Below, one piece after another: positions 270-50,386 of a stretch of DNA of 51,198 bases (position 1 is its first letter; the number at the start of each line of letters is the position of its first letter). The notes beneath the pieces are model-generated. The model did not search any database. It saw nothing but the letters and a program-made list of their open reading frames with translations, and was not told the origin of the DNA. A program made the position numbers and the translations under genes. The DNA is from a virus. The DNA is taken from positions 1 to 51,198 of IMG/VR virus record IMGVR_UViG_3300035162_002988; one strand, given 5' to 3'.

Positions 270-456
270 AATAAAAGCGTTGACCAACGTAGTTCAACAT
301 ATACTAAATGACCAAACTCAGCTAAATGATTTAGCTATAGGAACATTAGAAACTTTAAAGCTAATGCCTGGTTATGATAAGGCTATAGAGTTTTTAAAAA
401 AAGAAATAACAAATAAAGAAAATAAAGATGGAGTTAAGCAACAAGATACTAAGTGA
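235..456 (+). CDS. Small helical hypothetical protein, 73 aa
   Basis: A 73-residue frame directly before, and overlapping by 29 nt, the ribonucleotide reductase gene. The product is almost entirely helical (LLEMQNKIKALTNVVQ, then AIEFLKKEITNK) with a charged C-terminal tail. A second ATG at 259 would give 65 residues and cut the overlap with the preceding gene to 11 nt, so that start is a real alternative. No catalytic motif is visible. Its place next to the reductase suggests a related role, but nothing in the sequence proves it. Confidence 0.55.
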   Translation: MKESTLLEMQNKIKALTNVVQHILNDQTQLNDLAIGTLETLKLMPGYDKAIEFLKKEITNKENKDGVKQQDTK

Positions 457-2290
457 TATAACTGTATATATGAAATACGCTAAGTTTGTTCCTGAACTAA
501 ATCGTAGAGAAACCTGGATAGAACTAGTAGATAGAAATAAAGCGATGCATATTAAAAAATATCCAGAGCTTTCAGAAAGAATAAATGAAGCTTATAAATT
601 AGTATATGATAAAAAGATTTTACCAAGCATGCGTTCGTTACAATTCGGAGGTAAACCGATTGAGATTAGCCCTAATCGTGTGTATAATTGCGCTTATTTA
701 CCAATTGACCACATTGATAGTTTCCACGAAACAATGTTCCTCTTGCTTGGAGGTACAGGAGTTGGATACTCTGTACAAAACCACCATGTAAAGCAAATGC
801 CGCCAGTTAATCAACCTTATTCTAAAAGAACTAGAAGGTTTTTAATTGGTGATAGTATTGAAGGTTGGGCAGATGCAATTAAAGTTCTTATGAAGTCTTA
901 TATGGGCGACAAAAGAAGTTCTACTGTAGAGTTTGACTATTCAGATATTAGAGCTAAAGGCGCACAGCTAGTAACATCAGGTGGTAAAGCACCAGGACCT
1001 CAGCCATTAAAAGAATGTATATTAAAGATTAAAGGTATATTTGATGCTAAAGACGATGGTATGCCTTTGACAACAGTTGAAGCTCATGATATAGTGTGTC
1101 ACATAGCTGACTCAGTACTAGCTGGTGGAATACGTAGAGCAGCTTTAATTAGTTTGTTTTCTGCTGAAGACAGCGAAATGATTAGTTGCAAGTCTGGAAG
1201 TTGGTGGGAAACAAATCCACAAAGAGGTAGAGCTAATAACTCCGCTGTTCTTATGAGACACAAAGTAACGCAAGGTTTTTTTATGGATCTTTGGAAACGT
1301 GTAGAGCTATCAGGATCAGGTGAGCCTGGTATATATCTTAATAACGATAAAGACTGGGGTACAAACCCTTGTTGTGAAATAGCATTAAGACCTTTTCAGT
1401 TTTGTAACTTATGTGAAGTAAATGCTAGTGATATAGAATCACAAGATGATTTAAACGAAAGAGTTAAGCATGCTAGCTTTATAGGTACACTACAGGCTGG
1501 TTATACTGACTTTCATTATTTAAGAGATGTATGGAAAGATACGACAGAGAAGGACGCGCTTATCGGTGTATCAATGACAGGGATCGCGAGTGCCGCTGTG
1601 CTGCCGTTGGATATGAAGGCCGCTGCAAGTATAGTAAAAAGAGAGAATACAAAAACAGCTAAAGCTATTGGTATTAATCCAGCTGCAAGATGTACAACCG
1701 TGAAGCCTGCTGGGACAACATCTCTGGCATTAGGAACTTCATCTGGTATTCATGCGTGGCATGCTGATTATTATACGCGTAGAATCAGAGTTGGTAAAAA
1801 TGAGTCTATGTATAAATATTTATCTACTAACCACCCTGAGCTTATTGAAGATGAGTTTTTTAGACCTCATGACACTGCTGTAATTAGTATACCACAGAAA
1901 GCACCTGAAGGTTCTATACTAAGAGATGAATCACCTTTTGACTTGCTTGAACGTATAAAGAAAGTTGCTACTGAGTGGGTTAAGCCTGGTCACAGAAAAG
2001 GATCTAACACTCACAATGTTTCAGCTACTGTTAGCTTGAAACAAGAAGAGTGGGATCAAGCAGGGAGATGGATGTGGGAAAACAGAGACCACTATAATGG
2101 TTTGTCTGTACTACCTTATGACGGTGGGACTTATACTCAAGCACCATTTGAAGACATAAGCAAAGTACAATACGATATGGCTATGAATCATCTAAAAGAT
2201 ATTGATCTTAGTAAAATTGTAGAAACAGAAGACGAAACAGACCTTGCAGGAGAATTAGCTTGTGCAGGCGATAATTGTGAAATAAAATAA
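428..2290 (+). CDS. Adenosylcobalamin-dependent (class II) ribonucleotide reductase
   Basis: Converts ribonucleotides to deoxyribonucleotides using a cobalamin-derived thiyl radical, supplying DNA precursors for phage replication. At 620 residues it is shorter than the roughly 740-residue Lactobacillus RTPR. The redox set is complete: Cys88 in NCAYLP, Cys315 in NPCCE (thiyl radical position, with Asn313 and Glu317), Cys326 eleven residues on, and the C-terminal pair Cys612/Cys617 spaced CxxxxC for re-reduction. Further family stretches are GGTGVGYS near 108-114 and KPAGTTS in the second half. No second subunit is needed in this class, and none is seen. It overlaps the upstream small gene by 29 nt and is followed by a CxxC micropeptide. 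A short stretch near 1555-1625 is unusually GC-rich compared with the rest of the gene. Confidence 0.95.
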   Translation: MELSNKILSDITVYMKYAKFVPELNRRETWIELVDRNKAMHIKKYPELSERINEAYKLVYDKKILPSMRSLQFGGKPIEISPNRVYNCAYLPIDHIDSFHETMFLLLGGTGVGYSVQNHHVKQMPPVNQPYSKRTRRFLIGDSIEGWADAIKVLMKSYMGDKRSSTVEFDYSDIRAKGAQLVTSGGKAPGPQPLKECILKIKGIFDAKDDGMPLTTVEAHDIVCHIADSVLAGGIRRAALISLFSAEDSEMISCKSGSWWETNPQRGRANNSAVLMRHKVTQGFFMDLWKRVELSGSGEPGIYLNNDKDWGTNPCCEIALRPFQFCNLCEVNASDIESQDDLNERVKHASFIGTLQAGYTDFHYLRDVWKDTTEKDALIGVSMTGIASAAVLPLDMKAAASIVKRENTKTAKAIGINPAARCTTVKPAGTTSLALGTSSGIHAWHADYYTRRIRVGKNESMYKYLSTNHPELIEDEFFRPHDTAVISIPQKAPEGSILRDESPFDLLERIKKVATEWVKPGHRKGSNTHNVSATVSLKQEEWDQAGRWMWENRDHYNGLSVLPYDGGTYTQAPFEDISKVQYDMAMNHLKDIDLSKIVETEDETDLAGELACAGDNCEIK

Positions 2291-20973: not shown

Positions 20974-22203
20974 TTAATGTTTAATCCATTTAGATTTTCC
21001 ACGCATTACTTGTGTGAATTCTGATAGTTTAATATTTGATAATCTTATTTTAGCATTTCTTAGCTTTGTAGCTCTGTCTTTTTTGTATCTTTGAACAACA
21101 TATTCTGGGATGTTATTTCTTGTGGCAGTTATAGAGTATAACATGTGAGAATATAACGCATCCTCGGCCATCTTAGGTACCTTAGTATCATCACCATAAG
21201 CTAATCCATCTGATATATATTCTAAAGTTATTAATTTACCTTGTAGATCGCCACTAAAAGCAAAAGCGCCTCTTCTGTCGTCTATAGTAAACCAACCGTT
21301 TTGTTGAGATATTTCTGGCTGCATACCATATCTTTGTCCATATGCTGTTTTCCACCAATTCCAATTATATACGTTCGCGTCAGTGGATTCAAAATTAGTG
21401 CCTGTTAAATTTCTTTGGTTTGCATTTCTCCAATTTTCATTAGTTATAGACTGCTGAGATTCTAAGTTATTACCAAAGTCATCTTGAGTTGGTATACCTT
21501 GATTATCTTGAATTAAAGGTGCAGTTGGATTTGTAGTAAGAGTAGTTGGGTATATAATATGTTTTATACCCATATTGTCTATGTGTGACAACTGTACGTA
21601 GTTTACGTAGTCTTGAGGTAGAGGTAAAGATAAATTAGCAGGTATTGTTAATTCTTGTATGTTTACAGATTTTAAAGTGTCGTAACTAAATTCTTGTAAC
21701 CCTCTCTTTGCATGAAATATAACTTCTGATCTTTTAGCTCTTAATATAGTTCTATCAGTACCTACATAAGATAACATAAAATTAGCTACTATGTCTTTTA
21801 AGGTGTTGTATTGATAACTTTGATAATTATCCCATATTGTAGTTTGTTGTAGTCTTATAGTAAGTAAAGAACCAACTGTTACAGGAGCTGCATAATTAAC
21901 AGTTACAGTTTGAGCAGCTGTAGCTGGATCATTAGAATTAGTTAAAGTAGTAGTCACAGAATCACTAGTATATCCGCCAACAGTTGGAACCATTAAAACA
22001 TTGTCTATATATACGTCATAATTATTAATAGCTTGAGGAGTAGCTGCAACAGGTGCATCTGTCCATATTAAAGGAGCTAGTTCAGTAGGCCAAGGATAAG
22101 TTGCTCCACTAGCACCTAGAACGTAAGATTTTTCTCCTGTGTAATATTCAGAATTATTTTGAGTAACAAGCCCTGGGCTCTCGTAATTAGTTGATGTTGC
22201 CAT
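20974..22203 (-). CDS. Tail ring / tail tubular A-like protein, 409 aa
   Basis: Contains IFHAKRGLQEFSYDTLKSV, then PLPQDYVNYVQLSHID and HIIYPTTLTTNPTAPL, a pattern seen in crAss-like and marine phage neck and tail ring proteins at the position of T7 gp11. The N-terminal 130 residues look like an added beta domain. The C-terminus is basic (KKDRATKLRNAKIRL). It lies between a second neck ring gene and the large tail protein, with gaps of three nt each. Probable role: a dodecameric ring joining portal and tail. Assignment rests on motifs and gene order. Confidence 0.65.
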   Translation of the reverse strand: MATSTNYESPGLVTQNNSEYYTGEKSYVLGASGATYPWPTELAPLIWTDAPVAATPQAINNYDVYIDNVLMVPTVGGYTSDSVTTTLTNSNDPATAAQTVTVNYAAPVTVGSLLTIRLQQTTIWDNYQSYQYNTLKDIVANFMLSYVGTDRTILRAKRSEVIFHAKRGLQEFSYDTLKSVNIQELTIPANLSLPLPQDYVNYVQLSHIDNMGIKHIIYPTTLTTNPTAPLIQDNQGIPTQDDFGNNLESQQSITNENWRNANQRNLTGTNFESTDANVYNWNWWKTAYGQRYGMQPEISQQNGWFTIDDRRGAFAFSGDLQGKLITLEYISDGLAYGDDTKVPKMAEDALYSHMLYSITATRNNIPEYVVQRYKKDRATKLRNAKIRLSNIKLSEFTQVMRGKSKWIKH

Positions 22204-40118: not shown

Positions 40119-40375
40119 AGAATTACAACTACATCGAACTCTTTAATAACCTTGTATTCTTCTTTATTTATTTCAATACTAAATCCAGATGCTTTATCGT
40201 AATAAACTTCATCACCTTTTTTTAGTACAGACACTTCAGAGCCAGGTTCTATAACCTTAGCTCTTCTGTATCTAACATCTTCTCTTTGCTTTTCAGCTAG
40301 AATTAATCCGCCTTTTGTAGTCGTATCAACTTCTTTGATAGGATCTATAACTATATATTTACCTACTGCTTTCAT
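40115..40375 (-). CDS. groES: GroES co-chaperonin, 86 aa
   Basis: Caps the GroEL chamber. The GroES core is visible: KYIVIDPIKEVDTTTKGGLI (mobile loop with GGLIL), VIEPGSEVSVLKKGDEVYYD, and the end KEFDVVVIL. It is 11 residues shorter than E. coli GroES, mostly in the roof loop. It comes after groEL with an ATGA overlap, the reverse of the bacterial order, which suggests coupled translation. Probably assists capsid or tail protein folding. Confidence 0.92.
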   Translation of the reverse strand: MKAVGKYIVIDPIKEVDTTTKGGLILAEKQREDVRYRRAKVIEPGSEVSVLKKGDEVYYDKASGFSIEINKEEYKVIKEFDVVVIL

Positions 40376-41916
40376 GCTCTTAAATTATTAATTACACAAT
40401 CAGTTGATAATATAGTTGTAGCTACTGAAGCTGCATTAATCAAAGCACTTTTAGTAACTAACAAAGGATCTATAATTCCGGCTTTTACCATATCAACCGT
40501 ATTTCCTGTAACCACGTCTAATCCTTTACCTTCTTCAAGCTTTTCCACTTTGTTAATACCTGCGTTTTTTAATATCAACTCATGTGGTCTTCTTATAGCA
40601 CTGTAAAGTACTTCTTCACCTATACAAGTTGGTTTTAAATTAAAACTAGCATTTAGTAAAGCTATACCGCCTCCTGGTACTATGCCTTCTTTAATTGCAG
40701 CTTTTGTAGCACAAATAGCATCTTCAACCCTATCTCTTTTTTCTTTTAGTTCTAATTCAGAATTAGCACCAACTTTAACTGTAGCAACTTTAGCTTTTAA
40801 TTTAGCTAGTCTTCTTTCAAGCCTAATTACTACATTAGGGTTTTTAGTTTCTTTTATATTACTTTCTAGTAAATTAATAGTATTTTTAACGTCTTCATTG
40901 TCAGTTAAATCAACTTGTAATATTGTTTCTTCGTGGTTAGTTACAGACTTAATACATGAACCCAAATGTTCAGGTTGTATAACATCCATATCATCTCCTA
41001 AGTCTTCATTGACTAAAGTAGCTCCAGTAACAGCACATAAATCAGATAGTACATCTTTTTTACTAATGCCATATACGGGTGCATCTACAATGTTAACTTT
41101 TATATTTCCTTTTTTCTTATTCATAGCTAATGCGGAAACTACTTGTGGATCTACATCTGCTATAATTAAAAGACTTTTGTTACTTTTTATTACATATTCT
41201 AATATAGATTGTATCTTTCTTACATTAGTTATTTGAGATTCAACAATTAGAATTAAAGGATTATCAAGTTCTGATGTACCTTTTTCTAAGTTAGTAATAA
41301 AATGATTGTTTTTAAGAGGTTGGTCATATTGTACGCCTTCTATCAACTCTACTACTGTTTCAGGTTGTTCATTTGTTTCCATCATTACAATACCTGTTTC
41401 ATCTACTAGTTTAAATGCCTCACCTATAACTTTACCTAAATCTTTATCGTTGTTAGCAGATATAGTAGCTACTTGGTAAATCTTTTTGCCTTTTACTTTC
41501 TTTGCTGTTTTTTCTAAATAAGCTAATACTTTTTTAACGCCTGAATCAATACCTTTTTTCATTTCTCTTGGATCATCAAGAAGAGAATGTTCTGTAGCTT
41601 GATCTAGTATAGCTTTAGCTAGCACTGTAGCTGTAGTTGTGCCATCGCCAGCATCTGATACTGTTCTTTGAGCTGCTTGCTTTATAAGCGTTGCTCCAAT
41701 ATTTTCTAAAGGATCTTGTAATGTTATGGCATTAGCCACTGTTACTCCATCTTTTGTTATCTGAGGTTGTCCGTTACCATCTTCTAGTATTACACATTTA
41801 CCACTTGCTCCTAAAGTAGACCCAACAGCGTTGGTTAATTTTTCTACTCCAGTTAATATCTGACTTCTGGCAACATCACCAAAAGCCAGATTTTTAACTA
41901 ACTTTATTTCTTGCAT
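40372..41916 (-). CDS. groEL: GroEL chaperonin, 514 aa
   Basis: Group I chaperonin subunit. Nucleotide site motifs: TKDGVTVANAI (Asp56), AGDGTTTATVLA near 89-100, and VEDAICATKAAIKEGIVPGG with the ATPase aspartate; GIIDPLLVTKSAL near the end. About 30 residues shorter than E. coli GroEL, without the GGM repeat tail. Odd point: the residue at the position of E. coli Asp87 seems to be Ser, with Asp next to it. It has its own A-rich leader (TTAAATTAAATTAAATG). The gene lies inside the virion block, so it is made late, along with capsid and tail proteins. A host-acquired but diverged copy. Confidence 0.95.
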   Translation of the reverse strand: MQEIKLVKNLAFGDVARSQILTGVEKLTNAVGSTLGASGKCVILEDGNGQPQITKDGVTVANAITLQDPLENIGATLIKQAAQRTVSDAGDGTTTATVLAKAILDQATEHSLLDDPREMKKGIDSGVKKVLAYLEKTAKKVKGKKIYQVATISANNDKDLGKVIGEAFKLVDETGIVMMETNEQPETVVELIEGVQYDQPLKNNHFITNLEKGTSELDNPLILIVESQITNVRKIQSILEYVIKSNKSLLIIADVDPQVVSALAMNKKKGNIKVNIVDAPVYGISKKDVLSDLCAVTGATLVNEDLGDDMDVIQPEHLGSCIKSVTNHEETILQVDLTDNEDVKNTINLLESNIKETKNPNVVIRLERRLAKLKAKVATVKVGANSELELKEKRDRVEDAICATKAAIKEGIVPGGGIALLNASFNLKPTCIGEEVLYSAIRRPHELILKNAGINKVEKLEEGKGLDVVTGNTVDMVKAGIIDPLLVTKSALINAASVATTILSTDCVINNLRA

Positions 41917-49547: not shown

Positions 49548-49617
49548 ATAACTAAAAGTCGAAGTTGATAGTAATACTTTAACGACTATAAATAACACGA
49601 ACATATTACTCAGCACA

Positions 49618-49942: not shown

Positions 49943-50161
49943 ATGAATATAAAACAACATAAGCTAAAGCTTAACAAAGAATACAATCAAGCGATTGTCG
50001 ATAAAGTCCTCAACTCAATGTGGAATAAACTAAATAACGAACTAGATAATGTAATGATGGAATCAGGTGATTACTCTGAAACTAACAATGAAATGTTTGA
50101 CGATCAAGATTGCTACATGGGAATTATCTGTAACACTATGAAACTACAGTGTGACGAATAA
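49943..50161 (+). CDS. Small Asn/Met-rich hypothetical protein, 72 aa
   Basis: MNIKQHKLKLNKEYNQAIVD, helical, then an acidic middle and a Cys-containing end (DCYMGIICNTMKLQCDE). Soluble. Unrecognised. The hammerhead ribozyme starts at the next base after its stop, so cleavage would give its transcript a defined 3' end 44 nt past the stop. Confidence 0.6.
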   Translation: MNIKQHKLKLNKEYNQAIVDKVLNSMWNKLNNELDNVMMESGDYSETNNEMFDDQDCYMGIICNTMKLQCDE

Positions 50162-50211
50162 GTTTAACTGACGAGAGTTTAATACTCGAAACTACGCAAG
50201 TAGTCTTAAAC
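50162..50211 (+). ncRNA. Hammerhead ribozyme, type I topology
   Basis: Complete core. Stem I GTTTAA 50162-50167 / TTAAAC 50206-50211; core CTGACGA 50168-50174; stem II GAGT 50175-50178 / ACTC 50184-50187 with loop TTAAT; core GAA 50188-50190; stem III ACTAC 50191-50195 / GTAGT 50200-50204 with a GCAA tetraloop; cleavage base C 50205 (GTC triplet). All invariant bases of the family are present, including A-U 15.1-16.1 and C-G 15.2-16.2. Predicted cut: between 50205 and 50206, 16 nt before the next ATG. It would separate the upstream message from the downstream TM gene and leave a 5'-OH leader. Confidence 0.9.
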
Positions 50212-50221
50212 AATAATAACT

Positions 50222-50386
50222 ATGATTAAAACAATTAAACTAATAGCGATAAAAGCAGTCGAAGAAAAAATGCTAAAAGTATATGCAATAGTAACTACTA
50301 GTATATTCTTTGCAATATGGATACCAACTATGATCTTGGTATTAAAAGAAATTATAAACCAAGTATTAATACCTTTACTAAAATGA
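50222..50386 (+). CDS. 54-residue single-TM protein
   Basis: MIKTIKLIAIKAVEEKMLKV, then a membrane segment AIVTTSIFFAIWIPTMILVL, then LKEIINQVLIPLLK. The AAUAAUAACU leader begins right after the predicted hammerhead cut. Its stop overlaps the next start (ATGA). A small inner-membrane effector or antiholin-like protein is possible; unknown. Confidence 0.6.
   Translation: MIKTIKLIAIKAVEEKMLKVYAIVTTSIFFAIWIPTMILVLKEIINQVLIPLLK

Follow-up and report, generated by a model that had tools for sequence, protein, structure and literature searches.

The marine phage sequence analyzed here (51,198 nt, hereafter the window) contains on its plus strand, at 50160-50213, a complete type I hammerhead ribozyme positioned between two tiny genes, and patterns of conservation across phages suggest that it probably serves as a cis-cleaving divider punctuating a polycistronic phage transcript. 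By its sequence the element is classed as a hammerhead ribozyme, a variant of a known phage kind proposed to process transcripts, and comparison places it as one member of an abundant phage subfamily. Hammerheads flanking single phage genes have been in print since 2011; what appears to be new, relative to the open-licence papers searched, is the compact subfamily, the embedding of a stop codon, and the scale on which the arrangement occurs.

Anatomy and surroundings of the ribozyme

The hammerhead proper (50162-50211), read directly and set out strand by strand in Table 1, has stems I, II and III of 6, 4 and 5 bp, with loops closing stems II and III and stem I left open, which is the type I topology. 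The core positions C3, U4, G5, A6, N7, G8 and A9, then G12, A13 and A14, the A15.1-U16.1 pair and H17 were all present on reading and in alignments to the Rfam model RF00163 and our own model R3, and three helices with covariation support surround them. The preliminary description had reported every core base and three stems, and with this an independent model agrees; its placement of the element right after a stop codon, with a 16-nt leader to the next ATG, is also borne out. Hammerhead chemistry cuts after H17 and leaves 2',3'-cyclic phosphate and 5'-OH ends.

Table 1. Parts of the ribozyme and its flanking genes, in order along the window
Feature	Position	Strand	Basis and remarks
Upstream small gene, 72 aa	49943-50161	+	ORF list; TAA stop at 50159-50161, directly before stem I
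Flanking A at -1 of stem I	50161	+	Last base of the TAA stop; A in 266/270 family places
Stem I, 5' strand GTTTAA	50162-50167	+	Pairs with 50206-50211; two-sided changes at 6/6 pairs in the family
Catalytic core CTGACGA	50168-50174	+	Direct reading
Stem II hairpin GAGT-TTAAT-ACTC	50175-50187	+	4 pairs; two-sided changes in the family and among Elemovirus strains
Core G12 A13 A14 (GAA)	50188-50190	+	Direct reading, model alignment
Stem III hairpin ACTAC-GCAA-GTAGT, including A15.1-U16.1	50191-50204	+	5 pairs, strong covariation
H17 = C, predicted cleavage 50205/50206	50205	+	Hammerhead geometry; in the family C in 251/270, A in 15/270
Stem I, 3' strand TTAAAC	50206-50211	+	Two-sided changes at 6/6 pairs in the family
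Flanking AA after stem I	50212-50213	+	A at +1 in 265/270 family places
Leader of downstream message after predicted cut, 16 nt	50206-50221	+	Direct reading; 10 bases from end of stem I to ATG at 50222
Downstream small gene, 54 aa, hydrophobic	50222-50386	+	ORF list; no Pfam match

No second hammerhead was found in the window, nor any of types II and III, leaving one copy. There was no terminator-like site at the locus, and its reading as an intrinsic terminator was rejected. An antisense gene was also considered, as a 25-aa minus-strand ORF does lie over the element, but what is conserved is the RNA structure. The upstream 72-aa gene had no Pfam match, and a PHROGs scan assigned no function to the genes flanking the ribozyme.

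Between two small genes of the same operon lies a second conserved RNA element (49556-49612, plus strand), a hairpin (AGTCG/CGACT) whose loop, AGTAAT, pairs with a downstream ATTACT as an H-type pseudoknot; eight distinct copies in relatives showed 97.3% pairing and two-sided changes at 4 pairs, one relative (L005) has two copies in tandem, and no Rfam match was found. The phage also encodes a GroEL-like chaperonin (40372-41916, minus strand) and a ribonucleotide reductase with an insertion domain of the B12-dependent type (428-2290, plus strand). Its terminase shares 65% identity with the enzyme of a spring podovirus (MW202828), 46% with that of Elemovirus and 31-42% with those of Maribacter, Cellulophaga and Tenacibaculum phages. 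This search and the PHROGs scan place the phage near Elemovirus and the Cellulophaga podoviruses, and the terminase relatives taken with a match to a crAss-type muzzle protein make a Bacteroidota host likely.

Detection, covariation and distribution

The preliminary description had looked to the Rfam hammerhead models for confirmation, and there the type I model stayed below its threshold: RF00163 (Hammerhead_1) aligned over its full length (1-45 of 45) at 25.8 bits against a gathering score of 34. RF03152 (RAGATH-1-hammerhead) scored 17.8 bits against a cut-off of 56.3, with further sub-threshold matches at locus L103 (31.9 bits) and in Elemovirus (L044, 27.8 bits), and a scan of the whole window at gathering thresholds listed nothing. 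Twelve other loci with clear family members were likewise without a gathering-level match, so the cut-off missed by the window reflects a gap in Rfam. The covariance model R3, built from 102 matches in other phages with the window and its near relatives left out, had a single match in the window, at this position, with 65.8 bits and an E value of 1.4e-14, and gave 53-67 bits for the window's relatives, 56.2 for the Elemovirus copy and 40.1 for the copy in Cellulophaga phage phi19:3. An earlier score of 73 bits is not independent because the window was then in the training set. When both strands of 200 dinucleotide-shuffled versions of the window were scanned for hammerheads, loose 3-bp stems gave 27 type I or III matches, and stems of at least 5/4/5 bp gave no type I match.

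The local minimum-energy fold is exactly the hammerhead, at an energy ordinary for its composition (z -0.65). In thermodynamic folding with tertiary contacts left out, the hammerhead with 60-nt flanks lay 2.7 kcal/mol above the minimum, and the mean pair probability of stem I ranged from 0.03 to 0.5 depending on the flanks. Stem I in the window is weak and AT-rich, with one G-C pair only, and competing folds with the upstream coding sequence are predicted; the alternative pairing favored by the flanks may be real regulation.

The family was collected with DNA patterns in which stem III was unconstrained; some scans relaxed stem I or the inner portion of stem II as well. These yielded about 30 viral contigs at first and more than 120 contigs in each of the later scans. 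One pattern matched 22 stretches in viral contigs versus 1, a MAG contig, in the genomes of about 85,000 cellular species; among 145 genomes of that MAG's phylum the model found 1. In the 20 first members pairing was complete (100%) at all 15 pairs, and 64 cells had two-sided changes. Alignments of 61 and 98 distinct rows were 99.1% and 99.5% paired, the larger with two-sided changes at 13/15 pairs; both were fitted to the models and lean to structure by construction, and some of their stem columns were fixed by the search patterns. Stem III past its first two pairs was never fixed in this way, and most of stem I was free in three of the scans. Such diversity of stem sequence with pairing retained argues for RNA function rather than DNA homology. 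Aeromonas phage matches from a short-query search lacked the CUGANGA core and were rejected.

Among near relatives, the 72-aa upstream gene matched five IMG/VR contigs, with four longer relatives at 85-90% protein identity. In L004 and L005 the ribozyme stands right after the same stop codon as in the window, and each copy differs from the window's at two positions, N7 and one tetraloop base, the sole core change being at N7 (50172, C to T); for comparison, the gene adjacent to the ribozyme is 86% identical between the window and L004. Where the ribozyme is lacking (L002 and L003), the next gene overlaps the stop (GATGAGTGA), suggesting that the ribozyme occupies a junction that is otherwise translation-coupled. 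Operon alignment showed nearly the same ribozyme after gene family 2 in the window, L098 and L101, after an orphan gene in L100 and after family 14 in L099, and a form with a longer stem III after family 0 in L102, while the genes downstream varied as well (family 5, family 21 or an orphan). A fixed partner gene is ruled out by this variation. The differing junctions and the absence from some relatives indicate a ribozyme that is not tied to one gene and can be absent. Within the window's phage group it occurs as a single copy per genome and is missing from relatives G001 and G002, so it is dispensable, which counts against the divider reading.

Cultured phages carry the element too. It is present in all 68 Elemovirus records (host Flavobacterium sp. 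BAL314) and in phi19:3, where gp051 as annotated stops (at 21812) within stem I. Stem II in Elemovirus is GACU/AGUC or GGUU/AACC, depending on strain; elemoD and elemoF (L111 and L045) have GACU/AACC with two mismatches, which by sequence is an apparent surviving intermediate between the two compensated forms and offers a natural test of partial loss of function. Minus-strand CDSs annotated over the Elemovirus ribozyme (L044 2962-3069, L108 78-185) are probably false genes. Elemovirus also has a match to a type III hammerhead (L044 1205-1261; MT497017.1 19083-19139, minus strand; RF00008 36.3 bits versus a cut-off of 48.5) 13 nt before the first gene of a small-gene operon, and this together with the type I copy (L044 2995-3056; in elemoA, MT497017 17288-17349, minus strand) would free a message carrying ribozymes at both of its ends. 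In Maribacter phage Panino a type II match was weak (PP540027.1 36736-36802, minus strand, 18.6 bits versus a cut-off of 37). A paper on Baltic Flavobacterium phages, which may or may not cover Elemovirus, does not mention ribozymes.

Gene context and the proposed role

The anatomy of the family is nearly fixed. Across the 270 distinct places examined, stem I consisted of exactly six perfect pairs in 263, and with A on both sides of it almost throughout (Table 1) a seventh pair hardly ever forms. Loop II keeps certain letters and is partly conserved, and there is no stem I loop in the family. The extended, fast hammerhead is defined by a tertiary contact from stem I to loop II. Given the lack of a stem I loop, a contact conferring high speed would have to involve the flanking A's, which suggests that they may stand in for that loop in docking to loop II.

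Placement relative to genes is similarly constrained, although context was scored by a mechanical rule and contigs that are related do not count as independent, which makes the following proportions descriptive. Both neighbors, an upstream stop and a downstream ATG, were found at 232 of the 270 places, compared with 5.1% of random same-strand places. In 248 of them an upstream reading frame terminates in the interval from -12 to +24 of stem I. The stop codon overlaps the ribozyme or sits within it in 164, among them 61 with a TAA at stem I positions 4-6, 40 with the TGA of the CUGA core and 34 with a TAG whose G is the first base of stem I. With respect to the ribozyme, stops fall in every one of the three frames. 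A frame-opening ATG was present 5-45 nt past the cut in 254, with a median leader from cut to ATG of 23 nt (10-90% range 19-36). Multi-copy loci numbered 73, and in every one of them all copies were on one strand, at a median spacing of 547 nt (60 of 131 spacings were at most 500 nt); in one contig, L077, six copies follow one another at intervals of about 300-440 nt. Some members carry long stem III insertions (L077 1650-1770, L102 3030-3118), which are possible sites of control by a ligand or protein.

Under the proposed mechanism, once the 3' strand of stem I is transcribed the RNA would fold and cut itself after C50205, presumably during transcription. The upstream message would then end shortly after its stop codon, in a compact 3' structure made of stems II and III that terminates in the 2',3'-cyclic phosphate, and the downstream message would start with a 5'-OH and the 16-nt leader before its ATG. 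The likely benefit would be that small neighboring genes are carried on individual messages, each with a stability and translation of its own, free of translational coupling. Since the stop codon abuts the ribozyme or falls inside it, a ribosome terminating on the upstream gene would probably cover stem I and part of the core, and that ribosome may need to leave before cleavage can occur. The preliminary description had held such a divider to be worth describing. Comparison, through the core, the compensatory changes in all three stems, the stop/start placement and the same-strand arrays, strongly supports a real type I hammerhead placed where it could divide messages, the cut itself and its effect on expression being predicted. 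The case for novelty of the role is weaker than supposed there, because transcript processing had already been proposed (PMC3088659); the large compact subfamily with its built-in stop codon lay beyond what that description could see.

An alternative explanation, possible but clearly the less probable, could be that an active ribozyme mainly provides a defined and protected 3' end for the upstream message, with any downstream effect incidental. The type I topology does leave the ribozyme body on the upstream RNA, the stop overlaps the ribozyme in more than half of the places and no terminator-like site is nearby, but this would not readily account for a leader to the next ATG that is also tightly set or for a next gene that is nearly always on the same strand. 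Somewhat more doubtful is that the element is primarily a modular linker, with stops in several frames and a ready leader, used in recombination to shuffle small genes and with cleavage secondary. Near-identical copies at different junctions in close relatives and stops in all three frames would be consistent with shuffling, while the preservation of pairing in diverse stems points instead to function as RNA. It is unlikely that the ribozyme is chiefly a regulated switch, in which ribosomes on the upstream gene or pairing with upstream RNA hold off cleavage so that upstream translation controls the next gene; the stop abuts or sits inside stem I or the core in most copies and the competing folds described above would suit such control, but the overlap may reflect genome compaction alone. 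A chance resemblance or a decayed, inactive hammerhead is highly improbable despite the sub-gathering Rfam score and weak AT-rich stem I, given the independent E value, fixed core positions unchanged among relatives and the covariation, and chance by itself is excluded by that E value and the shuffles without a strict match.

Beyond the divider reading preferred here, a broader picture may be drawn in which many environmental tailed phages share one module (embedded stop, hammerhead with 6-bp stem I, short leader), repeated between small genes, that would turn polycistronic transcripts into single-gene messages by ribosome-gated cleavage and would also act as an interchangeable joint for gene shuffling; that all of these parts hold jointly we regard as doubtful.

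Relation to known ribozymes and significance

The closest precedent is the work of Perreault et al. 2011 (PMC3088659), in which clustered prophage hammerheads flank single genes or short gene blocks. Transcript processing was proposed there and cleavage was demonstrated for arrays in vitro and for one hammerhead in E. coli, while 4 of 18 consensus-matching hammerheads were inactive in vitro. As in those prophages, copies in the present family flank individual genes on one strand, a family-wide feature, the window itself having one copy. The prophage hammerheads are reported as types I, II and III, many of them near integrase genes, whereas this family has one compact type I form with a 6-bp stem I and fixed A flanks, and occurs in viral contigs and isolated phages. 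The embedded stop codon is a feature of this family, and a term search of the PMC3088659 text found no mention of one. HHphage of haloviruses HF1/HF2 (PMC3088659, PMC7230728) is set 13 nt ahead of a start codon within a polycistronic unit of the virus, with a mapped 5' end at most 3 nt from the cut. It resembles the present element in standing just before a start codon in such a unit, but it is reported as a single element, of an archaeal virus, with a variant core, carrying a two-base insertion linked to high salt.

Among Rfam families, RF00163 has type I topology and a core identical to that of the window, even though its cut-off is missed by the window and other members. RF03152 is similar in core context and in having an open stem I that is short (5 pairs in its model), but that model includes an extra 5' hairpin, whereas in this family the 5' side belongs to the coding regions of genes that differ. 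The theta ribozymes found in gut phages (PMC10879173) are likewise small, self-cleaving and very abundant, with one typical genomic position, but they have an HDV-like fold beside tRNAs rather than a hammerhead between protein genes. The role of phage hammerheads was called an open question in a 2017 review (PMC6155905), and the reason for ribozyme associations with phage genes was said to be unknown in a 2023 paper (PMC10085705). The open-licence literature searched contained no account of the compact subfamily, of the stop codon embedded in it or of how frequent it is, and prior description elsewhere is possible.

Because cultured phages of Flavobacterium and Cellulophaga carry the family, the divider hypothesis can be tested directly, and the family combines a uniform geometry with many natural replicates and with phage-host pairs in culture (Elemovirus with Flavobacterium sp. 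BAL314, and phi19:3). The findings would also mean that a common phage RNA escapes annotation based on Rfam and that false genes can be called over the ribozyme.
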